Below, piece by piece: positions 1 to 22,659 of a DNA stretch of 22,659 bases (the first letter of the stretch is position 1; every line of letters begins with the position of its first letter). A program made the translations under genes and the position numbers. The stretch spans positions 1 to 22,659 of the IMG/VR virus record IMGVR_UViG_3300027793_000297. The stretch is one strand, 5' to 3'. The notes below the pieces were generated by a model. It was not told the DNA's origin, did not search any database, and saw nothing but the letters and a program-made list of their open reading frames with translations. Source of the stretch: a virus.

Positions 1-3000
1 GACTTACCTGAGACGTAAAGCATGACGTCATCACCGAAAGTCTCCAAGAACTCGGGGATTGCTTCTTCGTAGTCCTTTTCCTGCATGTCGGAGAACGTCT
101 TGATGAGTTGCGACATGTAGACGTCACCCTGTTTGGTGTCGATTTCGAACTTGGTGGCACCTGATGCTGGTCCAACGAACTGATTGACGGCACGGAAAAT
201 CGTCAGGATGCGTGCCTTGCCGACAGCGTCGTTGAACAAAGATTCTCGGCCTTCTGGAGTGGTGCGGTCGTACTTGCCTGTTGCGTCCAGAGCGCGCACG
301 GTTTCCACGTAGGTTTGGCCGAACACGCCATCCAGTTCTGTGGGGTCGGCTTTGATTGCGCTGACCAGTTTGCGGATGTAGCCAGGAGTGAAGTCCAGAA
401 TGTCGCTGCCAGGTGTTCCGTAAGGAACCAAGAACTTGCGTAGATCGTTCTCTTTGGGGGCGAACTTGAGGAACTGGTTGGTGGCTATCTGTGCGACAGG
501 GCCGAGTGACGGGTTGAACTGGAAACCCATCGACAGACCCTTTACAGGGGCAGCCAAAGGTGCGGTCAAACCAGTGAACAGTTGGCTGGCCTTGTCCGAG
601 ATCGGGTAGTTGAACATGTACTGACCGGACTGCGGGTCCTTGTAGAAGAACCCTGTTCCGTCACCCTCAAGGTCCATGTTCGTCATACCGACGAATGTGC
701 GCTGAACACGGCGGAAGTTGGTCGGGTCTGCCGCGAACTGGGTAACGTACTTGCTCAAAACTTCACGCCATGCGGCAGCAAACGGGGCCATGACACGCAA
801 CGCATCTTCGACGTTGGTGCGATCAGCCGCATCGTAAAGGATTTCTTTCATGCGGATAGTGGCACGATTGCCCGCGTATTCGGCTAGTTGCTCAACGGTG
901 CCAACGCCTGTGGCGCTGTCACGGAGGTTCTTCAGTTCTGTGAACAGTTTGTTGCCACGCCCACCACCGATGTACTGGTTGGGGGTCATGCCGATTTTGG
1001 CTGCATCTGCTTCGATGTTGCGGATCATCTGATCGAACGACTTGGATGACAGAAGGTTGGCGTTCTCACGGACGTTCTTGTAGTAGTACTGGCGCCAGAT
1101 CGGGGACTTCTCCAAATAGTTGGTACCCGTTTGGATGAGGCCGTTGAAGAAGAAGTCGCTGAACTCACGCCACTTATTGAGCCACTTCATCTTGTATGCG
1201 GCAGGGTCTTCCTTGTGGCGCATAGCGAACCCTGTGAACGCAGGGATGAGTTCGTTGTTGGCGTTGTCTGCGCTGTTGTAGATCGTGTCGATGACGCGCA
1301 TCAGTTCTGCGTCGTAGGGGCGTCCCTTTTCTGCAACACTAAACGGCCCTGACGCAAAAGCGCGGCCCTTGTCCAAGACTCCTGGGGTGATAGTGGTGCG
1401 TTCAAGTTTGTAGACGGGGATTGCCTCGTAGATGTCGCGTTCTACGAACTGGCCTGGCTTGTTGATCGCATCAACGTCGATCCGCTTGCGCTTTACGTTG
1501 GTGACAACGAAGTCACGGTCAGCAAAGTTGTCTTTGCCTTTGAAAACGGTGCCAACGCCAGGCTTGCCTTCGACGTAGATGAAGTCTTCTGGGAGTACGT
1601 CGCGGCCGACGACGAACTCGTCTGCGATGGCTCGGCTGTTGCCTGGCTCAATGATTGGGACTCGGTTGTTGGCGATGATGACACGCAGTTCCGGGGTGTC
1701 ATACCACTTGTCAGTGCGGCCGAACACTTCGGTCTGAATCCAGGTGCGGAGGAACTCGTCGGGGTCGTCTGAAAGTGTGCGTGGGAGACGCAGACGCATG
1801 CTCTTGCCACCCTCCACGCCATACACGTAGCCGTTCTGGGCCACGTCAATAAGTGACTGCTTGACATCAGGGACAGTGTCCAGATACTCCATGACTTCGT
1901 CGATGTTCTTGGTTTTGCCAACGCGGGCCATAGCACGGCGGATCACCGGATCTTTGTTGAGCATGCGCAACTGGTCAAGAATGCCCATCGTGTGCAGTTC
2001 AGGATTATCGAGACGTGTGGTGAACCCGTACTCGCCGTTCATGATGACTCGTTCGATGGCGTCAGTTGGGTTGCCGATGTGCTTCATGGACTTGACGCCC
2101 TGTGCACGGAAATAGGCTTCCTCTGACGGCAACAGTTCGTCGCCATACTTTTCCAACGCTTCACGGGCGGCGGGTGTGAATGCTTCACCTGCGATTCCAG
2201 CGGTTCCACGTTTGCCAAGCACCCACGAGAAGAATGCGTACGGTTTGTTGAACATGCTGGCCAGGCTGCTGTCGTTTTCAAGGTACAGGTGGGCCTGTCC
2301 GTCGAAGATGTTTCGCAGGAAGTAGCCAGGGTTCATCAGGGTGAGTGGCTTCCAGATTTCGTTTTGGAAGAACTCGGTGGCCTCAAAGACTGCGCGCTGA
2401 TCTCCTGTCCCGGTCTTGGTTATGCGCTGCATGCTCTTGCGCCAGAACGGGTTGGTTGCTAGGGCGCGCATCTTTCTGACGTCGGGCAGGTATTGGACGT
2501 TGTTCAACAGTTCCACGAAGATGGTGGGACTGATGATCTTGGCGTTGAGGTCGTCGATTGAGTTGATTTGTACGCCTTCGCCAGCAAGTGTTTCGATGAT
2601 CTGCCGTTCGTCGAGGCCGTAGTTGTCGACGAGCATGCGCACCAGGTTGTGCCCTGGGTTCTTGCCGATTTCCGTGGCGATGCGCTGCCGCATTTTTGCG
2701 ACCAGTTCATCCTGTTTTTTGATTAGGTTGGAAATCGCAACTTCGGGAACCTTGTAGCCGTGGCGCAAAGTTTCTGCAACCACGTCGTTGATTGCGTTGC
2801 GTGCCTGATAGACGCCGACAGGGTTGGCGGTGCTGGCGTTGTACGCCATCATCGTCTTTCCGAGCACTTGCTGGTACACCTCTGTGGGAAGTTTCCCGCC
2901 GAGGGTTTTGAGGAAACGGTCCACGTTGCGAACGGCCTCGAAACGATCCTGCGGATTGCCTTTGACAAGCATCATGCTTTCCGGGGTGACAGTCGTCCAC

Positions 3001-4478
3001 TTGGTGATGAACTTCTTGACAGCGGGGACACGCATGTAGGTGGCGTTGGCAAGTTCGCTCAACGGGCGGACACGAGCGGCGGCAAGGTCACGAATGTCAG
3101 TTACAAACGTGCCTGGACGCTGATCAGGTGTTTCACGCAGTTTGGCTGCAGCCTCAGCAAACACGCCGCGGATACCACCCTGTTGGGCGGTGTCCAACAC
3201 TTTCAATGCCTGCTGCCCTGTGATCTTGCCTTCGTAAATGTCGTTCTGGATGCGCCACGCGTGATAGTGGCGCTTCGTCTCAACGGCTTCCTCAAGTTCA
3301 GCAATCCTCTTTTTGGCGCCGTTGACGTCGTTGCGGAACGCTGCGGTCTGACGTTCGTCCAAGCGGATACGGCGACGTTCCTCAAATAGACGGTCAAGTT
3401 CGCCGCGTGCCTCATCCAACGATCCTTTGAGGCGGGTGGTTTCTTCTGTGTATTCGTCAACGATGCGTGTAGCGGCGCGTTCGAAACGGCGGGCGCCACG
3501 GTTCTTGGACCACCATGTACCGAACTCAGATGCGTCAATCGCTTCACGTGCCTGACTGATAACCCCCGCTTCCGAAAGTTCATCAGCGCGTTGCAATGCC
3601 CGTGTTTCGCTGTAGATGCGTGGCGCTGCCTGCCCCAAACGTGCTGCCTCATCAGCCGAATCCAAGGTCTCCCGCAACACCTGCTGTGCTGCTGCTGCAT
3701 CTGCCGTCTTGCCAGCCTTCGTTAGTTCGTCAATGTGAGCCATCAACGCCGTCGTGTCAGGGATAAGTGCACCTGATGCAAGTTTGACTCCGCCGATTTC
3801 GCCAGTGAGTTGCAAACCTTTCTTGACTTTGCCAAGCGCAATCGTCGGGTCAATGAACTGGATCGCGGCGTCGATCGAACCTGACAGGAGACGGTAAGCC
3901 AAACTTTTTTCTGGGAGGAGTGCGCTTGCTGCGGAACGGCCAATAGTGAACGCGGAACCGTTGATGGTGCCGCGGTACTGGCGTGCACGCTCAGACTGTG
4001 CTTCTGCGACAGCACCGCCAGCAAAGAAACCGTCGCCAGCGCCGTCAGGGTCAGCGAGCAACGAGCCGAGCGTTGTGGACTTGAAGATACCGGATACCGT
4101 CGGTTCGGGTTTGACGACCTGTGATGCGACGTTTTGGATCAACTCCGGTGCGAGGCTGAGGCCTGCCATCGTGTAACGGGACACAGTTTTGACAGGGTCG
4201 TAGAAGAACTTTTGTACAAACCCTTTAGGGGTTTCCTGTTGCGTCAAATCCTTCTGCGCAGAAATGTTGTTCGCAAGTTCAACCGCTTGAGGTGACGCGT
4301 TCGCTTTCGCAAGCGCTAACGCAGTGGACGGTTTGACGTACTGTGCTTTTTGGTAGATGCCAGAAACAGCGGAAGAGATTTGTGGGGTGACGTTCGCTTG
4401 GACCCGTTCGCGCAACTTCTGCTTGGTTTTGATTTCGTTGTATGCAGCCTCAAGACCTTGAGGGGTTGTGAAATCCAT
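1..4478 (-). CDS. Giant internal virion-type structural protein, C-terminus cut by window edge
   Basis: A single frame stays open from the ATG at 4478 to base 1, giving at least 1492 residues with no stop in the window. It begins three bases after the stop of the upstream small gene, with a GGGG-containing ribosome site in front. Its place after terminase and portal and its size suggest a large structural or ejected virion protein. I see no signal peptide. A charged, heptad-like stretch near residues 345-400 (LKGSLDEARGELDRLFEERR) probably forms a coiled coil. Near residue 1230 lies MAPFAAAWREVLSKY, similar to an 'APF..AW.E' motif I recall from very large phage virion proteins. That match is from memory. 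It could also be a tape-measure analogue, but long hydrophobic stretches typical of tape measures were not obvious. The reading frame is certain; the role is inference. Confidence 0.8.
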   Translation of the reverse strand, partial: MDFTTPQGLEAAYNEIKTKQKLRERVQANVTPQISSAVSGIYQKAQYVKPSTALALAKANASPQAVELANNISAQKDLTQQETPKGFVQKFFYDPVKTVSRYTMAGLSLAPELIQNVASQVVKPEPTVSGIFKSTTLGSLLADPDGAGDGFFAGGAVAEAQSERARQYRGTINGSAFTIGRSAASALLPEKSLAYRLLSGSIDAAIQFIDPTIALGKVKKGLQLTGEIGGVKLASGALIPDTTALMAHIDELTKAGKTADAAAAQQVLRETLDSADEAARLGQAAPRIYSETRALQRADELSEAGVISQAREAIDASEFGTWWSKNRGARRFERAATRIVDEYTEETTRLKGSLDEARGELDRLFEERRRIRLDERQTAAFRNDVNGAKKRIAELEEAVETKRHYHAWRIQNDIYEGKITGQQALKVLDTAQQGGIRGVFAEAAAKLRETPDQRPGTFVTDIRDLAAARVRPLSELANATYMRVPAVKKFITKWTTVTPESMMLVKGNPQDRFEAVRNVDRFLKTLGGKLPTEVYQQVLGKTMMAYNASTANPVGVYQARNAINDVVAETLRHGYKVPEVAISNLIKKQDELVAKMRQRIATEIGKNPGHNLVRMLVDNYGLDERQIIETLAGEGVQINSIDDLNAKIISPTIFVELLNNVQYLPDVRKMRALATNPFWRKSMQRITKTGTGDQRAVFEATEFFQNEIWKPLTLMNPGYFLRNIFDGQAHLYLENDSSLASMFNKPYAFFSWVLGKRGTAGIAGEAFTPAAREALEKYGDELLPSEEAYFRAQGVKSMKHIGNPTDAIERVIMNGEYGFTTRLDNPELHTMGILDQLRMLNKDPVIRRAMARVGKTKNIDEVMEYLDTVPDVKQSLIDVAQNGYVYGVEGGKSMRLRLPRTLSDDPDEFLRTWIQTEVFGRTDKWYDTPELRVIIANNRVPIIEPGNSRAIADEFVVGRDVLPEDFIYVEGKPGVGTVFKGKDNFADRDFVVTNVKRKRIDVDAINKPGQFVERDIYEAIPVYKLERTTITPGVLDKGRAFASGPFSVAEKGRPYDAELMRVIDTIYNSADNANNELIPAFTGFAMRHKEDPAAYKMKWLNKWREFSDFFFNGLIQTGTNYLEKSPIWRQYYYKNVRENANLLSSKSFDQMIRNIEADAAKIGMTPNQYIGGGRGNKLFTELKNLRDSATGVGTVEQLAEYAGNRATIRMKEILYDAADRTNVEDALRVMAPFAAAWREVLSKYVTQFAADPTNFRRVQRTFVGMTNMDLEGDGTGFFYKDPQSGQYMFNYPISDKASQLFTGLTAPLAAPVKGLSMGFQFNPSLGPVAQIATNQFLKFAPKENDLRKFLVPYGTPGSDILDFTPGYIRKLVSAIKADPTELDGVFGQTYVETVRALDATGKYDRTTPEGRESLFNDAVGKARILTIFRAVNQFVGPASGATKFEIDTKQGDVYMSQLIKTFSDMQEKDYEEAIPEFLETFGDDVMLYVSGK

Positions 4479-11113: not shown

Positions 11114-12451
11114 TCAGGCGTCCTGTCGTGAGTGGTGCTCGAGATAGCGGCCGATCGACGGCGTCGGCATTTTGCCGCGCGCCATAGCGCGAAGCGTGTC
11201 GATCGCTTCGGTTGCGTTGTGAACCTGCGTCACTCGATGTCGACGGAGCCGGGCGACCATGTCGCGCGCCAGTGACGTCGTCGAGCGTGTGCGCCCGGTG
11301 ACGTGTCCGTCGCTCACCCATAGGACGGGCATCCCGGCGCGGCGGCGGTAGCGCTTCACGGCGTACTCGAGCGCCGTCCCGTCGCATCCGTTGCCGCCGG
11401 GCACGTCGGGCATCTCGCGCACCCGGCGGCCGTCCTTTGCGATGAGCCACGTGTTTGCTCGACCGCTGTCGCCGTTGTCGCTCGCGGAGTAGCCGACGAC
11501 GACCGCGCCGCGCGCCGCGTCGATCACGTCGTCGATCTCTTCGGTCGACCAGTGCATCGAGCCGGAGAGATCGAGCACGAGCAACGCGTCGACGGCTCGT
11601 TGACGTGTCGTGAAGACTCGACGGTCGGGGTCGGTGAGGAGTCGCGACATTTGTCCGATCTTCGACCCGGTCGTCGACGGTCGTCGACGTGCGCCGACTT
11701 TGCCGCGGTGTGCGACGTCGAGCCGGGTTGCGCCCGGTATCGCGCGCACCCATAGGTCGCGGCCTTGCTCGATGTCGGGTGAGTCGCCGCCGGGCGGCCC
11801 GTCGACGGGTGTCGGTGTCGGTTTCCCGGCGAGCGTCGGCACGTCGTCGAGCACCTGCACGATGCGCGACGCGATGTGCGCGAGCACGTCGGCGTCGTAC
11901 TCGGCGTCGATCGGTCGACGATCTAACACCCCTTTCACGCCGTCGCGGAGCGTTTGCAACGCGTCGCGAAGTCTCGGGTGTTGCGCACCTAGTGCACGGA
12001 GCACGGAGCGCGCGCCGGGCGTGTGCAGGTGCTCGAGCGCGGCGACCGTCGCGTCGTGCGGCGTCATCTGCTCGAGTCGCCCGGCGACCAATTTCGCGTA
12101 GTCGACGTCCCACTCATGCTCGCCCTCGAGCGCGGCCTCGGTGAGCGCTTGCGCGCGCCACAGCCCGGCCACGTCGAGCGCGGTCTCTCGATGACGTCCG
12201 GCTCGTCGCATCTGTCGCGCGGCGTACGTGCGCCACTGACCGACGACGTCGTACCGGGCGCGAACGAGCGCCATTGTGCGCAGTGTGCGACCTAGTGGCG
12301 AGTCGAGTCGCGACGCTTCGAGTCGCCCGGCTTCGACGTCGACGCGAGTCGCCGCCGCGATCGGTGGCGCGTCCTTCGAGCGCCACGCGGCCGGGGTTGC
12401 GCCGTCGAGTCGACGGTCGAGCCACTCGGGACGAACGGGTGCAACGGTCAC
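11114..12451 (-). CDS. VWA-domain protein, partner of the MoxR ATPase
   Basis: 445 residues from the GTG at 12451, which overlaps the ATPase stop (GTGA). The frame stays open far upstream because the region is GC-rich, but only this start is coupled. Residues 1-200 are helical, residues 208-228 are a Pro/Gly-rich linker and residues 285-425 are a von Willebrand factor A domain. The metal-binding MIDAS is complete: D294-L-S296-G-S298, T359 (CDGTALEYA) and D381 (VLWVSDGHVTG). Organisation (helical N-part, C-terminal VWA) resembles ViaA, CobT and other VWA partners of MoxR ATPases, which bind metal and present substrates to the ATPase ring. The substrate here is unknown. Composition matches the island and not the flanking phage genes. 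Confidence 0.9.
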   Translation of the reverse strand: MTVAPVRPEWLDRRLDGATPAAWRSKDAPPIAAATRVDVEAGRLEASRLDSPLGRTLRTMALVRARYDVVGQWRTYAARQMRRAGRHRETALDVAGLWRAQALTEAALEGEHEWDVDYAKLVAGRLEQMTPHDATVAALEHLHTPGARSVLRALGAQHPRLRDALQTLRDGVKGVLDRRPIDAEYDADVLAHIASRIVQVLDDVPTLAGKPTPTPVDGPPGGDSPDIEQGRDLWVRAIPGATRLDVAHRGKVGARRRPSTTGSKIGQMSRLLTDPDRRVFTTRQRAVDALLVLDLSGSMHWSTEEIDDVIDAARGAVVVGYSASDNGDSGRANTWLIAKDGRRVREMPDVPGGNGCDGTALEYAVKRYRRRAGMPVLWVSDGHVTGRTRSTTSLARDMVARLRRHRVTQVHNATEAIDTLRAMARGKMPTPSIGRYLEHHSRQDA

Positions 12452-13179
12452 GGGCGCACCTGCAACGCGTTGACGCGCGCCGCTTCGACGATGCTCTCGC
12501 GGTGTTGCGGTAGCGCGATTTCGAGCGCCCGGTCGAGCGAGTGAACGCGCATCAACTCGACGACCGCGAGGAACGTGCGCAAACTGACGCGCTCGTGCTC
12601 GTCGGCCTTCGACAGTGCTCGAGCAGGCTCGCGGAGAAACTCGGGGAGACGTGCGAGCGCCGCCGGGTGCGGTTCGTCGATGTTGATCGCGATCGGGAAA
12701 CGGTCGCGGAGCGCTTCCGGGAGTAGGTGCGGCTCGACGTTCGTTGTCGCGATCGCCTGAAACTCGGCGCCCGGCTTCACGATGTCGCGCGTCTCGGGGT
12801 TCTGCCATTCGCACGACTCGAACGAGTCGGTCGCAAGGAGCAGACTCGACAGCGCTTCGCCGCCGGCCTTGTCGATTTCGTCGAACACGAGTCGAGACTC
12901 GCCGCGACGCCATGCGCGAGGAACAGCGCCCTCGTGGAATGACCAGCGCGTGCCGTCTTCCGGCTTCCACTGTCCGAAGATTTGCGCGTCGGTCATGTCC
13001 TCGACACACTGAACGCGGAGCGCGCCGTTTTTCGGTGCGTACAGCGAGCGCGCGCCGTACGTCTTGCCAGTGCCGGGCGGCCCCCACAACAGCACTCGTG
13101 AGAGGCCAGCGCGGAGCACGTCGTCGAGCGCTTGCCAGCAGGGTGGCAACGCGTCGAGCGTCGGGTCGATGGTGGTCAT
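12448..13179 (-). CDS. MoxR-type AAA+ ATPase
   Basis: 243 residues, short for a MoxR protein (usually about 300 or more), so the C-terminal lid is reduced. Walker A is GPPGTGKT (33-40), Walker B LVFDE (97-101), sensor 1 the Asn of AIATTNVEP (147), and arginine-finger candidates lie in LRDRFPI (R158, R160). FHEGAVPRAW and LLLATDSF match the segments around the AAA+ pore and the second helix of this clade. CobS-like ATPases are close alternatives. Family members form hexameric rings that remodel or metallate partners together with a VWA protein, here encoded next with a GTGA overlap. The start is supported by GAAAGGAAA at a normal distance. It opens the five-gene island operon after a 383-base leader. 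Confidence 0.93.
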   Translation of the reverse strand: MTTIDPTLDALPPCWQALDDVLRAGLSRVLLWGPPGTGKTYGARSLYAPKNGALRVQCVEDMTDAQIFGQWKPEDGTRWSFHEGAVPRAWRRGESRLVFDEIDKAGGEALSSLLLATDSFESCEWQNPETRDIVKPGAEFQAIATTNVEPHLLPEALRDRFPIAINIDEPHPAALARLPEFLREPARALSKADEHERVSLRTFLAVVELMRVHSLDRALEIALPQHRESIVEAARVNALQVRP

Positions 13180-13319
13180 GTTCGGGTTTCCTTTCGTCGT
13201 GTCGGGCGGTTGCTCGACGACGTCGACGATAGTCGATCGTTGCCGGGTTCGTGGTGGATTTCGTAGCGGCGTTCGTTCGAGCTCGATTCTGCGACACGGT
13301 GCAGATAGTGGCCCGGCCT

Positions 13320-13350
13320 CGGCCCCGGCGTCGATCGACGGGCGCGTCGA
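13320..13350. repeat. 31-bp direct repeat, copy 1
   Basis: Identical over 31 bases to 13398-13428, with one mismatch if extended by two to three bases. The centre of the repeat is the perfect 12-base palindrome CGTCGATCGACG. Copies start 78 bases apart in the leader of the MoxR-VWA operon, which fits a pair of binding sites. Confidence 0.85.
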
Positions 13351-13397
13351 GCGCTCCCGGGAGTCGACGCGGTGCTCGACGACGACGTCGACGGGCG

Positions 13398-13428
13398 CGG
13401 CCCCGGCGTCGATCGACGGGCGCGTCGA
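13398..13428. repeat. 31-bp direct repeat, copy 2
   Basis: Second copy of the repeat at 13320-13350, with the same CGTCGATCGACG palindrome. The sequence between the copies is also rich in GTCGAC-type words, so simple expansion of a low-complexity region is an alternative to selected binding sites. Confidence 0.85.
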
Positions 13429-13474
13429 ACGTATGTTCGAGCAGCACCCTCGAACGCGCAGAGTGGTTTTTCTA

Positions 13475-14335: not shown

Positions 14336-14520
14336 TGTTCCCCTCCTTGGGATAGTGCGACGTGTAGTCGCTCGACCATGCTGGTGAGCATGGCGACCTT
14401 GTTCTCCAAGTCTTTGATGCGGTCTTGGAGTGCGTGCTTGTCTTCTCTCAGGGCTTCGATGACTCCTAGTTGTTCGGAGCACCAAGTCTGATAGGTAATG
14501 AGATCTGATGTGTCTGTCAT
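14332..14520 (-). CDS. 62-aa coiled-coil protein
   Basis: Residues 18-58 form an amphipathic heptad pattern (VIEALREDKHALQDRIKDLE, then NKVAMLTSMVERL), so a dimeric or trimeric coiled coil is likely. The start overlaps the WhiB stop (ATGA), and the stop overlaps the next start (ATGA). There is no DNA-binding or membrane segment. Function unknown. Confidence 0.75.
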   Translation of the reverse strand: MTDTSDLITYQTWCSEQLGVIEALREDKHALQDRIKDLENKVAMLTSMVERLHVALSQGGEQ

Positions 14521-14861
14521 GATCCGAGTGTATTACGTGTTTGTTTGCGACTCAAGTACTGTCTGCGTTCCGGCACGGTCAGCCCGCCCCACACGCCATG
14601 CCAGATGTCGTTGACGCACGCCCAGTCAAGGCAGCGTTGACGGACGGGGCAGGTGCGGCACAGTTCTTTCGCTGCGTCGTAGACGTGGGCGTGGTTGCCG
14701 CGTGCTTCATGGAAGAACATGTCGACGGCCTGGTCTTTGCAGGCTGCTAGTTCTTGCCAGTCAATGTCTTGGTCGGTGAGTTTGTAGTCCTGTAATAGGT
14801 TCACGTAGTCATAGGTTCCACGGCTGGAACCCTTCCCCCTTGGTGTTTTGCGAGTAGTCAT
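14517..14861 (-). CDS. whiB: WhiB-family iron-sulphur transcription regulator
   Basis: 114 residues with the full WhiB signature: Cys41, then C68-x2-C71-x5-C77 to hold a 4Fe-4S cluster, followed by GVWGG (89-93) and a basic tail (ERRQYLSRKQ) that contacts DNA. WhiB proteins bind the primary sigma factor and redirect transcription. Phage copies such as mycobacteriophage TM4 WhiBTM4 are known to interfere with host WhiB2 and block septation or superinfection. The N-terminal 30 residues are variable. The gene starts 53 bases inside the lytic transglycosylase gene and is followed by a coupled coiled-coil gene. The family is limited to Actinobacteria and their phages, which fixes the host phylum. 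Confidence 0.95.
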   Translation of the reverse strand: MTTRKTPRGKGSSRGTYDYVNLLQDYKLTDQDIDWQELAACKDQAVDMFFHEARGNHAHVYDAAKELCRTCPVRQRCLDWACVNDIWHGVWGGLTVPERRQYLSRKQTRNTLGS

Positions 14862-15327
14862 ACAGTGCTTTGGCGGCCTTCAGATTCGTGAGCGGGTCGA
14901 ACAACTGTTCGCACCCCACGGTACTGAGAATCCCCATAGTTTGCAGGTATCCGCCTGGGTACCAGCGTGTTGGCAGGCACCAGGAGCGGTCGTTGATTTG
15001 GGTGAGGCCGATGTCAGCGGACCCGTCCCGGTTGAGTGTCGTGTTGTGGGCGTTGGCCTGGCATCTGGACTCGCGCCAGATCACGTAGTCCAGGGTCGGC
15101 ATACTGTCGGCATGCCAGCCCGCCTCGGCTGCCAGCCCCCACCATTGGGGGCAGCGGGCCGTGGCAGGGACGGTCGTGGTTGGCGCGGAGACGGGCCTAG
15201 GAGCCTCCACAATCGCCGCATACGGGGTGGAGGGGGTTGGCTCAGGGGTCGGGGCATCCAGCCCCTGCGCACCCCAAATGAGGACCAGGCCTGCCACCAG
15301 GGACAGACCTCTTGCGATGATCTCCAT
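14809..15327 (-). CDS. Membrane-anchored lytic transglycosylase (lysozyme-like fold)
   Basis: 172 residues. Residues 4-22 are a hydrophobic signal or anchor (IIARGLSLVAGLVLIWGA). Residues 24-57 are a Pro/Thr linker ending PTTTVPATA. Residues 59-172 are a transglycosylase domain with the catalytic Glu86 in IWRESRC and the family's DIGLTQIND (105-113). It would cut peptidoglycan glycan strands outside the membrane. Several Cys residues (59, 89, 117, 139) could form disulphides, as expected for an exported protein. I chose ATG 15327 because it overlaps the methyltransferase stop (TAATG) and has GAGGTGG upstream. It lies far from the M15 endolysin, so the phage carries two wall enzymes. A virion-entry or late-lysis role are both possible. 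Confidence 0.88.
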   Translation of the reverse strand: MEIIARGLSLVAGLVLIWGAQGLDAPTPEPTPSTPYAAIVEAPRPVSAPTTTVPATARCPQWWGLAAEAGWHADSMPTLDYVIWRESRCQANAHNTTLNRDGSADIGLTQINDRSWCLPTRWYPGGYLQTMGILSTVGCEQLFDPLTNLKAAKALYDYSQNTKGEGFQPWNL

Positions 15328-15845
15328 TAGACCCACCTCACCCTAGTCGCCAGGTGGTGCTTGTGGGCTACTGCCCGTTCCATGCCGCCCGAACCTGGGA
15401 ACAGGTCATCGACCGTATCTTGCAATGGGTCGAATGCCAACAGGTCCAACACCCACTCATTGAACGAGTCAGGTTTTGCACCAACTGTTCCTGTCTTGCG
15501 TGTTGTTTGGCTGGCGTGCCAATCCCTCACCATTTCTCGTTCGTAGTTCTTGCGTCCACCCCGGAAGATCACTGGTTCCCATGCGTACTGCACTGTTGTC
15601 TTGCGTATCTGGTGAAACGTCTTCACCCACGCGGCAACACGTGCGTCAGCCGGACAGATTGGCAGCATCCACACCAGGTCAGATGGGTTGCATGACAACG
15701 CCCAACCGTCTGGGTATTCGTTGACTAACCGTTCAACAAGTTTCACGTGAGCCTCCTTCGTGTCCCAAACAAACGCTTCCGGATGTTCTTTGTATCTACG
15801 TTTTCCGTTGCCAAGATACGGCGGGTCCGCGTAAGCGAACCTCAT
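15327..15845 (-). CDS. DNA methyltransferase, DPPY class with beta-type motif order
   Basis: 172 residues. The catalytic DPPY motif is at 7-10 at the very N-terminus, and the SAM-binding FPGSG motif is at 149-153 near the C-terminus. This order (IV before I) is that of group beta amino-methyltransferases, which make N6-methyladenine or N4-methylcytosine. The protein is short for the class, so the target-recognition part (about 80-130) is minimal. There is no restriction enzyme nearby, so it is probably a solitary enzyme that protects phage DNA or marks it. The start overlaps the upstream stop (ATGA), and the end overlaps the transglycosylase start. Confidence 0.85.
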   Translation of the reverse strand: MRFAYADPPYLGNGKRRYKEHPEAFVWDTKEAHVKLVERLVNEYPDGWALSCNPSDLVWMLPICPADARVAAWVKTFHQIRKTTVQYAWEPVIFRGGRKNYEREMVRDWHASQTTRKTGTVGAKPDSFNEWVLDLLAFDPLQDTVDDLFPGSGGMERAVAHKHHLATRVRWV

Positions 15846-19969: not shown

Positions 19970-20102
19970 GTTTCCCCTTTATGAGTTGATCGAGGTGCTC
20001 GATCGTCTTGATGAACTCGTCCTGTTCGGCGGGTCCTACAAAGACTTTATCTAGCCACCTTCTTATTCTTTTCAACTCTATTTTTGTCAACCCGTTTCCC
20101 AT
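19944..20102 (-). CDS. 52-aa basic helical peptide
   Basis: MGNGLTKIELKRIRRWLDKV opens a 52-residue basic, helical product ending KGKHDRPDTWR. GGAGG nine bases before ATG 20102 supports the start, and the gene fills the only gap between its neighbours, overlapping the upstream membrane gene by 56 bases and the downstream gene by 26. No Cys or membrane segment is present. Function unknown. Confidence 0.65.
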   Translation of the reverse strand: MGNGLTKIELKRIRRWLDKVFVGPAEQDEFIKTIEHLDQLIKGKHDRPDTWR

Positions 20103-20334
20103 TGTCAAGCACCTCCTGCTTGGCGTGGGACTCTAGGTGCTTCTTCAGGGTTTCATCAACTTGGTCAATCTTGATCTCAAGGGTCTTGCCCTGGGCAAAG
20201 ACTTTTCGTACCATCTCGGTGAGCAACGCATGCTCGGCTGAGTCCTGACGGCGGGCTTGCTGGATCACGGCGACGAGGATGCCGCCAACGGCTGTGACGA
20301 TTGCAGCGACTACAAGCGCCCAGCCGCCGTCCAT
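20047..20334 (-). CDS. One-TM plus coiled-coil membrane protein (holin-like, DUF2746-type)
   Basis: 95 residues from ATG 20334, one base after the endolysin stop; a GTG at 20376 is possible but lies inside the endolysin gene. Residues 4-25 (GWALVVAAIVTAVGGILVAV) form one membrane helix, and residues 30-85 are a charged coiled coil with a basic end (KNRVEKNKKVAR). The same organisation is seen in the DUF2746-type proteins next to endolysin in mycobacteriophages, which are candidate holins or spanin-like partners. The assignment is by layout and synteny. Confidence 0.75.
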   Translation of the reverse strand: MDGGWALVVAAIVTAVGGILVAVIQQARRQDSAEHALLTEMVRKVFAQGKTLEIKIDQVDETLKKHLESHAKQEVLDNGKRVDKNRVEKNKKVAR

Positions 20335-20335
20335 G

Positions 20336-20926
20336 TCAGAAAGGACGCCCGCACTCACGGCAAGTGGCAGGCTCACTACTTTGCGTGGCGCCCTTCTTTG
20401 CCTTCCATTCCTTCACCAACTGCGGGACTTCGTCGCCTTCGGTGTAACGGATGTGCCACGGTTCGCTATCCAACTCGTGACTGAATCCGTACTTGTGTTC
20501 GTTCGCAAGCAGCCATTCCAGACGCTTACCGGACGCGTTCGCGATGTCGATGGCGATGCCGAGGTTGTGGTTAGACGTACCAGGCACAGCCATCGGAGCC
20601 ATCTTCGGCTTCAGATACCACAGTTTGCCCTTGTACACACGGGGCTTCTGCTTCATCATCTTCGGGGTCGGCTTGTCCGTGTGACGTTGGAAGAACCCGT
20701 ACTCCTGTGTCTCCAACGAACGATAGGTGTCAGCCTGCGAGGTGGGTGACAGGTCGATCCCGTCCGCGTTTGCTGCCTCATCCATCGCCTCATACGCGTC
20801 AGCAGCAAGATGATGCAACTTGCCTTTGCCTTCGATGCCGCGCAACAGGTTGTCAGGCAACTTGCCGGGGGTGACCCCCTTCAGATCAGCAGGAAGTTTG
20901 ACGGGACGAACAGGGAACTTGGACAT
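20336..20926 (-). CDS. M15-family peptidase endolysin (VanY/D-Ala-D-Ala carboxypeptidase type)
   Basis: 196 residues. The zinc site is complete: PGTSNHNLGIAIDI (115-128; His120, Asp127) and EPWH (155-158; catalytic Glu155, His158), with the upstream family motif YRSLETQ (68-74). It would cut peptide bonds in the stem peptide of peptidoglycan and end infection by lysis. The N-terminal 45 residues and the C-terminal CRECGRPF tail lie outside the catalytic domain; the latter has a CxxC that might bind metal. There is no signal peptide, so export needs a holin. Such membrane proteins flank it on both sides. Confidence 0.92.
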   Translation of the reverse strand: MSKFPVRPVKLPADLKGVTPGKLPDNLLRGIEGKGKLHHLAADAYEAMDEAANADGIDLSPTSQADTYRSLETQEYGFFQRHTDKPTPKMMKQKPRVYKGKLWYLKPKMAPMAVPGTSNHNLGIAIDIANASGKRLEWLLANEHKYGFSHELDSEPWHIRYTEGDEVPQLVKEWKAKKGATQSSEPATCRECGRPF

Positions 20927-20932
20927 TTAGTT

Positions 20933-21184
20933 TTACTTTCGGAATGCTTCCGAGATCTCGTCAGCGGTCAGTTCGCCATCCGTCGAAGCGGCAGCCAACT
21001 TCTGCAACACACCAGCCACAGCCATGAATCCTGCGATCAGCGCAGACTTCACAACCGACACACCGATCACCGCACCACCCGTGATCGCGGGTAGGGCGGT
21101 CGCAACAAACAGGGAGAACAGACGCTGGCCGAGATCCAGGGTCTTGGCAATGGTCTTGTTAGCGATACTCATGAACTTGCTCAT
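20933..21184 (-). CDS. Holin-like membrane protein
   Basis: 83 residues from ATG 21184, which has GGGGAGAAGG just before it; the frame extends upstream to 21313, but that part lies in another gene. Two membrane helices are likely (LFSLFVATALPAITGG and VSVVKSALIAGFMAVAGVL), followed by an acidic tail (DGELTADEISEAF). Size, helix number and position one gene before the endolysin fit a class II holin. The start overlaps the upstream stop (ATGA). Holins cannot be proven by sequence alone. Confidence 0.75.
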   Translation of the reverse strand: MSKFMSIANKTIAKTLDLGQRLFSLFVATALPAITGGAVIGVSVVKSALIAGFMAVAGVLQKLAAASTDGELTADEISEAFRK

Positions 21185-21339
21185 CCTTCTCCCCTGTCTC
21201 GGTAAGTGAGAACCGAGTGTAACACCAGGGCTACACCTGTCAGCCAAAGGGCTTGTTTCAGGGTTGGTCCTGAGAGTGTGATGAGGACTAGCCCTACCCC
21301 GGCGAGCGTCCATGTTTGTTCTTTGATGTAGTTGAACAT
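21181..21339 (-). CDS. 52-aa two-TM membrane protein of the lysis cassette
   Basis: MFNYIKEQTWTLAGVGLVLI opens a product with two short membrane helices (about 11-23 and 31-43) separated by a turn (SGPTLKQ), ending in a basic tail (YRDRGEG). It lies between the PA14-like gene and the holin-like gene, and its stop overlaps the holin-like start. It could be a second holin or antiholin. The ribosome site is weak. Confidence 0.7.
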   Translation of the reverse strand: MFNYIKEQTWTLAGVGLVLITLSGPTLKQALWLTGVALVLHSVLTYRDRGEG

Positions 21340-21351
21340 GGTCGGTCCAGA

Positions 21352-22572
21352 CTACCTCACCCTTCTTGGTGCGGGCATCGGGGCGGGAAGCACGAAAAGG
21401 ACAGCGGTGGCGGCCACAACTACACGGCGTTCAGCGACGCTGATCTTGGAGCCGACTGGCACGTAGTCGTCGTAGCCACCCGAGTAGATGTCCACGGTGG
21501 CCTCAAACTCTTCACGTTCTTCGATTGGCGCGTCGGCTGCTGGAGCGGGTATGGTGTCCTCTGTCAGTGACGCGACTGGCGAATCGGTTGCCGTCTCACC
21601 AACAACATCCATAACCGTGGGGGCTGGAGGGGCGGCAACCGAAACTTCTGTAACCTGTGCGGGTGCACTGGTTTCTACGACTGTGGTTGACGGTAGGGGT
21701 TCTGTTGTTGTCGTCGTTCGCGGCGTTGGGCGCAGTGTTGTGGTGGTTGTTTCGACGGGAACCGTCGTATCAACAACAGTTGTCGTGGTCTCCACAACAG
21801 TTGTCGCAGGCTCGGTCGTTGTTGGCGGCGGAGGCGGTGGTGGCGGGGGAGGCGGTGGAGCCTGAGTTGTAGAGGTGGTCGTAGTTGGCGGCAGGGTTGT
21901 AGTAGCCCTTTCTTCCACCGTTGTAGTTGTTGACTCCTGAGTGGTTGTCGTTTCCGGCACCGTCGTCGTAGTGGTCTCGGGCACCGTAGTCGTTGACGAG
22001 GTAGTGGTAGTAGATGTCGGGGTCAACGGTTCCCGTGTGAACGCCTGATCGGGCACGATCTCCCAATAGCCGTCTCCGATACGCCAAGCGAGCATGAAGC
22101 ATGTGCCACCACCCCACTCGTAGAACCAGCCATCGAGCGGATACGAACCAGCCTCGGGGGTAACGGTAACGATCTCGCTCCACTGACATCCTTTCAAATC
22201 CCAAGTGCCGAACTCTACGTCACCAATCTGCATGATTCCGCCATCGTCGGCGGCGACCATGAGTCGTATCTGTTCGGCCTCAGGGAATGTGATGAACCCT
22301 GAGTAGTGCAGCATGAAGAAGTCTGTCGGGCAGTCTTGGAATGGTTCGCCTTCGAAGTTGCGGTTGATGTTGTTCTCAACCTCGGACCCGCACACTTCGT
22401 ACAGGTCATCTACGCGTTGCGGTTCTTCTGTGTCGGGGATGATGTACCCGACTGCGTTGAGTCCCTCTACGGGTTCAGCGGATGCTGGTGCGAACCAGGC
22501 GAGTGTTGCTGCTGGTGCGAAAAGAATCCAGCGAAGGCTACGCCGCGGGCGGCGTCGGGGTGACGAACTCAT
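21352..22572 (-). CDS. Exported PA14-like protein with Thr/Pro stalk and C-terminal membrane segment
   Basis: 406 residues. Residues 1-32 are a signal peptide with twin arginines (RRSLRWILFAPAATLAW), probably cut after ASA. Residues 35-170 resemble a PA14 domain (FPEAEQIRLMVAADDGGIMQ; GSYPLDGWFYEWGGG), a carbohydrate-binding beta barrel. Residues 185-330 are a low-complexity stalk of ETTTT-type repeats broken by a run of 12 prolines. A hydrophobic stretch near 388-402 (RRVVVAATAVLFVLP) with a basic end could anchor the protein in the membrane. Either the phage displays it on the infected cell or it is a virion decoration. Stalks of this kind are common in Acidimicrobiia. The start lies inside the end of the upstream gene. 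Confidence 0.85.
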   Translation of the reverse strand: MSSSPRRRPRRSLRWILFAPAATLAWFAPASAEPVEGLNAVGYIIPDTEEPQRVDDLYEVCGSEVENNINRNFEGEPFQDCPTDFFMLHYSGFITFPEAEQIRLMVAADDGGIMQIGDVEFGTWDLKGCQWSEIVTVTPEAGSYPLDGWFYEWGGGTCFMLAWRIGDGYWEIVPDQAFTREPLTPTSTTTTSSTTTVPETTTTTVPETTTTQESTTTTVEERATTTLPPTTTTSTTQAPPPPPPPPPPPPTTTEPATTVVETTTTVVDTTVPVETTTTTLRPTPRTTTTTEPLPSTTVVETSAPAQVTEVSVAAPPAPTVMDVVGETATDSPVASLTEDTIPAPAADAPIEEREEFEATVDIYSGGYDDYVPVGSKISVAERRVVVAATAVLFVLPAPMPAPRRVR

Positions 22573-22659
22573 CTAGTTCGGCATTGTAGGTGTCGCCGAT
22601 GCCAGCGTACTTCCCCCGAAAGTTTCCGTTGTATGAGGTTTGCTTCCACGCCCCAGTCA
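22538..22659 (-). CDS. C-terminal end of a structural-type protein, cut by window edge
   Basis: Forty residues are visible, reading GAWKQTSYNGNFRGKYAGIG then DTYNAELDEFVTPTPPAA and a stop. A QTSYNxNFRxxYAGIGxTYD segment is one I recall near the ends of virion-associated proteins in marine and freshwater phages, so a structural role is likely. It overlaps the start of the PA14-like gene by 35 bases in another frame. The rest of the gene lies beyond the right edge. Confidence 0.7.
   Translation of the reverse strand, partial: TGAWKQTSYNGNFRGKYAGIGDTYNAELDEFVTPTPPAA

Follow-up and report, generated by a model that had tools for sequence, protein, structure and literature searches.

A stalked protein with swappable heads and its small membrane partner as a candidate surface-display pair of Acidimicrobiia and their phages

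Phages that apparently infect Acidimicrobiia carry a gene pair encoding a stalked protein with an exchangeable head and a small protein with two hydrophobic segments (the partner), described here from a 22,659-base IMG/VR virus record, the whole of which is referred to as the window. We put slightly short of even odds on the pair forming a previously undescribed two-part surface-display system of Acidimicrobiia and their phages, in which a swappable head, a stalk and a membrane partner would relabel the cell as infection ends. Our preferred account of its function, with a probability of roughly 0.4, is that the stalk protein is a lectin exported late and displayed on the infected actinobacterial cell, where it would cover glycans against phage adsorption.

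The stalk protein gene (21352..22572, stop codon included; this and all other window features below lie on the minus strand) reads from ATG to stop and encodes 406 aa. Residues 1-32 (22477..22572) combine a basic n-region, a hydrophobic core and ASA (MSSSPRRRPRRSLRWILFAPAATLAWFAPASA) and read as a Sec signal peptide; signal peptides and membrane topology were judged by simple rules, by which 92 of the 93 complete phage relatives have a signal-peptide-like N-terminus. The head (residues 33-182; 22027..22476) is followed by a Thr/Pro-rich stalk (residues 183-350; 21523..22026; 62 Thr and 31 Pro among 168 residues) containing one run of exactly 12 prolines (residues 239-250; 21823..21858). A conserved C-terminal domain (CTD) of ∼50 residues (21355..21507) closes the protein, its motif in the alignment being FExxVDIYxGxxDxYVPxGSxIxVxxRR, then a hydrophobic stretch, then RR. 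Since all 93 complete phage relatives share this layout, each with a 50-residue stretch of ≥48% Thr+Pro, it is not a product of chance. Both the signal peptide and the long Thr/Pro stalk with 12 prolines had been named in a preliminary description of this DNA, and both are borne out. The C-terminal membrane anchor claimed there stands only in part: the hydrophobic stretch is real, but it is short (∼15 residues, VVVAATAVLFVLPAP, before the basic residues), so that “membrane-anchored” is a weak description of the stalk protein alone. Checked against sortase-type signals, the CTD has the hydrophobic stretch and the basic tail, and its conserved motif is YVPxGSxIxVxxRR, not LPxTG; sortase motifs differ between classes. 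In a separate observation, the signal peptide of a locus 98% identical to the window elsewhere (L002) lacks 27 nt between two copies of TTCGCACCAGCA (L002:1835-1919 versus window 22477-22572), a loss that shortens the hydrophobic core and might switch off export.

Modelling and sequence profiles place the head in the PA14 domain superfamily (Pfam PF07691). A PA14-like fold had been named in the preliminary description, which proposed structure prediction of residues 33-175; an AlphaFold2 model of the head, from an alignment of 30 relatives, gave that fold with a pLDDT of 93.1 and a pTM of 0.88. The best-matching solved structures were PA14 domains, namely those of the Clostridium anti-sigma factor RsgI3 (6qe7; Z 18.9, rmsd 2.1 over 138 residues; sequence profile E 2.6e-23), the ice-adhesin lectin MpPA14 (6x7j; Z ∼16, rmsd 2.4-2.6 over 148-149 residues) and the yeast proteins Flo1, Flo5 and Epa1 (Z 14-15, rmsd 2.4-2.8 over 148-150 residues). 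RsgI3 and MpPA14, the closest solved folds, are nonetheless non-phage proteins of other overall architecture. Pfam and PHROGs searches with the window stalk protein returned no match; in Pfam, PF07691 scored above cut-off (E 3e-11) for the swapped head of a related locus (L009). Apart from the PA14 head, the stalk protein is without a Pfam or PHROG family. The DDG motif of the head aligns with that of MpPA14, and 28 of 28 relatives retain both Asp109-Asp110 and four Cys without change. The head accordingly has, in its DDG loop, the two adjacent Asp residues that are a feature of Ca-dependent PA14 lectins, in which this pair binds calcium. These residues suggest that the PA14 head may bind glycans, and the four conserved Cys are in keeping with an exported domain.

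The partner (21181..21339; 52 aa, from ORF reading and profile searches) is encoded directly downstream of the stalk gene, across a 12-nt gap in the window. The preliminary description had overlooked this gene, as well as the exchange of heads described below. Among 95 phage loci with enough sequence, it follows the stalk gene directly in 92, and in the remaining three (DSL-LC01, L118 and L162) it is fused to the C-terminus of the stalk protein; in a first count, 38 of 94 stalk-partner pairs were spaced as in an ATGA overlap. The association holds equally from the other side, the CTD being encoded directly upstream in 78 of 78 loci found by the partner alone. Pairwise similarities of the CTD are also more strongly correlated with those of the partner (0.46) than with those of the neighboring holin-like protein (0.24). 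In PHROGs, the 52-aa partner is itself phrog_29041 (E 5e-22, 28 of 31 members), an entry without a function label, for which PHROGs gives no link to a stalked protein; the same family also picks out the fused part of the DSL-LC01 protein, residues 891-935. A structure model of the fused C-terminus reached a pLDDT of only 45 and was discarded as unreliable.

The preliminary description had considered the stalk protein odd for a phage gene, yet IMG/VR scans found the stalk protein or its partner in hundreds of contigs, and the view of it as a rare oddity was rejected. Relatives numbered 16 for the whole protein, 201 for the CTD, 232 for the PA14 head and at least 590 for the partner, all counted as IMG/VR contigs and not as species; a set of 110 unique loci contained 93 complete stalk ORFs. 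Named phages in INPHARED gave little: the whole stalk protein had weak matches there (a Pelagibacter phage, E 0.1), the partner had no match, and the CTD was found in one named record, Actinomycetia phage DSL-LC01, assembled from a lake metagenome.

Several unrelated heads sit on the common stalk and CTD. They comprise two PA14 types, a short Trp/Cys-rich type (“TCQS..WQDCEAW”), a PPC-like type (our own reading), an “FDNGT” type and a large multidomain type, the names of the short, PPC-like and “FDNGT” types being descriptive only; these three had no Pfam match among the examples scanned, and the head of L065 comprises PA14 and fn3 domains (Pfam). From the first stalk codons onward, the window and L009 match at 99.9% identity over 3,550 nt, yet their PA14 heads differ. 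In L013, the upstream end and signal peptide are those of the window (98%) and lead into a head of the L009 type; L013 is 99.87% identical to L015 from nucleotide 36 of the ORF onward and divergent from it before that point. These identity patterns therefore put breakpoints at the head/stalk boundary and within the signal peptide, showing that heads have been exchanged exactly at the boundary between domain and stalk. A cellular ORF (L093:1378-4218, minus strand) encodes a Ser-rich, lipoprotein-like product with repeats such as MTSPDGIYWTPRTSAANN that resemble some heads of the phage stalk proteins, suggesting head exchange between hosts and phages; L053 and L071 belong to the same observation.

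The preliminary description placed the gene next to a lysis cassette, which was right and understated. In the window, the 3′ end of an upstream gene (22538..22657; a small phage protein, “MAHFAQL...WKQTSYNGNFRGKYAGIG”, read in frame and truncated where the contig stops) extends 35 nt into the start of the stalk gene; an intact homologue of it is present in 62 related loci. Downstream, the partner gene has an ATGA overlap with a gene for a holin-like small membrane protein of 83 aa (20933..21184), followed after 6 nt by an endolysin gene (20336..20926; VanY/M15 peptidase, Pfam PF02557, E 1.9e-14) and then by one for a small protein that has one transmembrane segment and a charged tail (20047..20376). 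The holin-like protein matched no named holin family in Pfam or PHROGs. It does match phrog_26427 (E 5.5e-20), labelled “nuclease”, a label ill-suited to a short hydrophobic protein encoded beside an endolysin. Among loci found by CTD and head, profiles showed 83 of 92 to have the holin-like gene downstream and 82 of 87 to have an endolysin there, with endolysin domains confirmed in the window and in examples. In the window's lineage, then, the pair opens a packed holin-like/endolysin operon. The sample found through the partner is rich in larger phages, and there a holin-like gene or known endolysin lay within the fetched downstream DNA in 35 of 72 loci; in these larger phages the pair stands among tail genes, for which reason the idea that it always belongs to a lysis cassette was rejected. 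What stays constant is the pair, which in the lineage of the window is most often found in the lysis cassette.

Other ORFs of the window were also noted. Far from the VanY endolysin, 14809-15336 encodes a hydrophobic N-terminal segment and an SLT_3 lysozyme-like domain (Pfam, E 5.6e-08) and is probably a second wall hydrolase. At 11114-13447 and 12448-13179, an AAA ATPase (phrog_16448, E 1.5e-34; MoxR-like by eye) has as its neighbor an ORF containing a VWA-like “DLSGSMHWS” stretch, and a 1,492-aa protein at 3-4478 runs off the contig end with no clear Pfam match (best E 0.12).

The module is found in cells as well. In 395 Acidimicrobiia genomes, the CTD profile (from alignment A5, which was effective; A2 and A3 were too divergent for a genome scan) and the partner profile matched the same seven genomes, at sites that were adjacent or fused, a coincidence with a chance of ∼3.5e-15 if matches were random, the genomes being related to one another. 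A phylum-wide sample of 198 genomes gave only two matches, both among these seven, and the partner was present in 16 of 200 genomes of one Acidimicrobiia family. Where neighboring genes were read, they were ordinary-looking chromosomal genes (aldo-keto reductase, sigma factor, ABC transporters), so cells use the module too. The preliminary description had likened the stalk to secreted proteins of Acidimicrobiia, and cellular proteins of this class indeed have the same stalk style and CTD; the homologue search it proposed found relatives both in Acidimicrobiia genomes and in hundreds of phage contigs. Its suggestion that the gene is host-derived fares less well: cells carry the same module, but a plain stray host gene is unlikely, given that diverse phages have the module in a fixed position and always as a pair. 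From the sites of the cellular copies and a WhiB-like gene read by eye, the host class is probably Acidimicrobiia, which as of 2019 had no cultured freshwater representatives (PMC6802176). The WhiB-like ORF (14517-14861) points to an actinobacterial host.

In the account that we prefer, the signal peptide would send the stalk protein through Sec late in infection, a timing suggested by the packed operon with lysis genes. The PA14 head would then bind glycan, and the Thr/Pro stalk would carry it across the cell wall. In the membrane, the CTD and its short hydrophobic tail would be held together with the two-transmembrane partner. Because the stalk protein would be made with tail and lysis genes, we propose that it coats the cell just before lysis. 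The likeliest benefit would be the occupation of surface glycans, keeping progeny and competing phages from adsorbing to the dying cell or its fragments. Shielding of debris fits the position with lysis genes better than exclusion does, since many phages make their exclusion proteins early (PMC9586334). Receptor matching would predict that the head is specially coupled to the neighboring tail protein, which was not supported: in a small sample, the pairwise similarities of the two correlated at Spearman 0.33, below the tail-endolysin value (0.39). A proposed analogy is Llp of phage T5, a phage-made envelope lipoprotein that blocks adsorption to infected cells and to lysed fragments (PMC9586334) and is thus likewise a phage surface protein acting against adsorption, debris included; it differs in being a small lipoprotein that acts on an outer-membrane protein receptor and has neither lectin head nor stalk. 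Among phages, the closest precedent for variable secreted cargo that carries a sorting domain of host type is Cryophage, which encodes variable, predicted secreted cargo with a C-terminal T9SS sorting domain, one of them with a PA14 domain, and for which superinfection exclusion was suggested (PMC7468147). Cryophage differs as a Bacteroidetes phage with a type IX secretion CTD, and the accessible text of that report describes neither a paired membrane protein nor a position in a lysis cassette.

Against this stands foremost the possibility that the pair controls lysis, the partner being a holin or antiholin and the stalk protein an exported sensor of outside signals that tunes lysis time, somewhat like T4 RI. 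The packed operon, the ATGA overlap with the holin-like gene and the endolysin all speak for it, as do the one- and two-transmembrane holin-like proteins of actinophage lysis cassettes: mycobacteriophage LysF1a and LysF1b are likewise small membrane proteins in lysis cassettes with an ATGA overlap (PMC13056207), although they are compared here by layout and not by sequence, and the accessible part of that report does not link them to an exported protein with a stalk. In the lineage of the window, the partner is, as a holin would be, a small membrane protein beside an endolysin, less often so elsewhere. Yet it does not occur as an independent lysis gene: the stalk CTD precedes every one of the 78 partner genes, and fusions are found in cells and phages, which largely disposes of the partner as an independent holin. 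Cellular loci with no evident lysis genes carry the pair and its fusions as well, the pair of large phages is surrounded by tail genes, and a long disordered stalk would conduct signals poorly. Control of lysis is thus the main rival, weakened by the constant CTD pairing and the cellular copies, and we regard it as unlikely.

Rather unlikely, too, is that the displayed lectin serves to stick infected cells to neighbors, particles or grazers, which would bring the release of progeny close to new hosts. The yeast Flo and Epa proteins, among the best fold matches, have a comparable layout of lectin PA14 head, Thr/Ser-rich stalk and surface anchor; as eukaryotic, GPI-anchored adhesins they differ in their anchor, share only 11-16% head sequence identity and have, to our knowledge, no two-transmembrane partner. 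Expression with lysis genes, moreover, would leave little time for gathering cells. That phages acquired a host surface protein of general benefit to the infected or lysogenic host is quite improbable; the presence of the same CTD and partner in Acidimicrobiia genomes agrees with it, as does the predicted temperate lifestyle of DSL-LC01 (PMC10611076), but the recurrent position with tail and lysis genes does not, the window leaves no room for a separate transcription unit, and no integrase stood out in it. Tail genes adjoin the pair in many loci and PA14 domains are known in other phage proteins, so a fibre-like decoration of the virion with an incidental signal-peptide-like start was also weighed; the conservation of that start, the hydrophobic C-terminus and the obligate membrane partner make it highly improbable.

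Acidimicrobiia have a wide distribution in freshwater and marine environments, and hundreds of contigs, apparently of their phages, encode the module. If the cell surface is indeed relabelled before lysis, a common unannotated gene pair would be explained, a handle on phage competition in plankton would be gained, and a surface-anchoring pair that hosts use as well would be exposed. The swappable heads make binding specificity directly testable.
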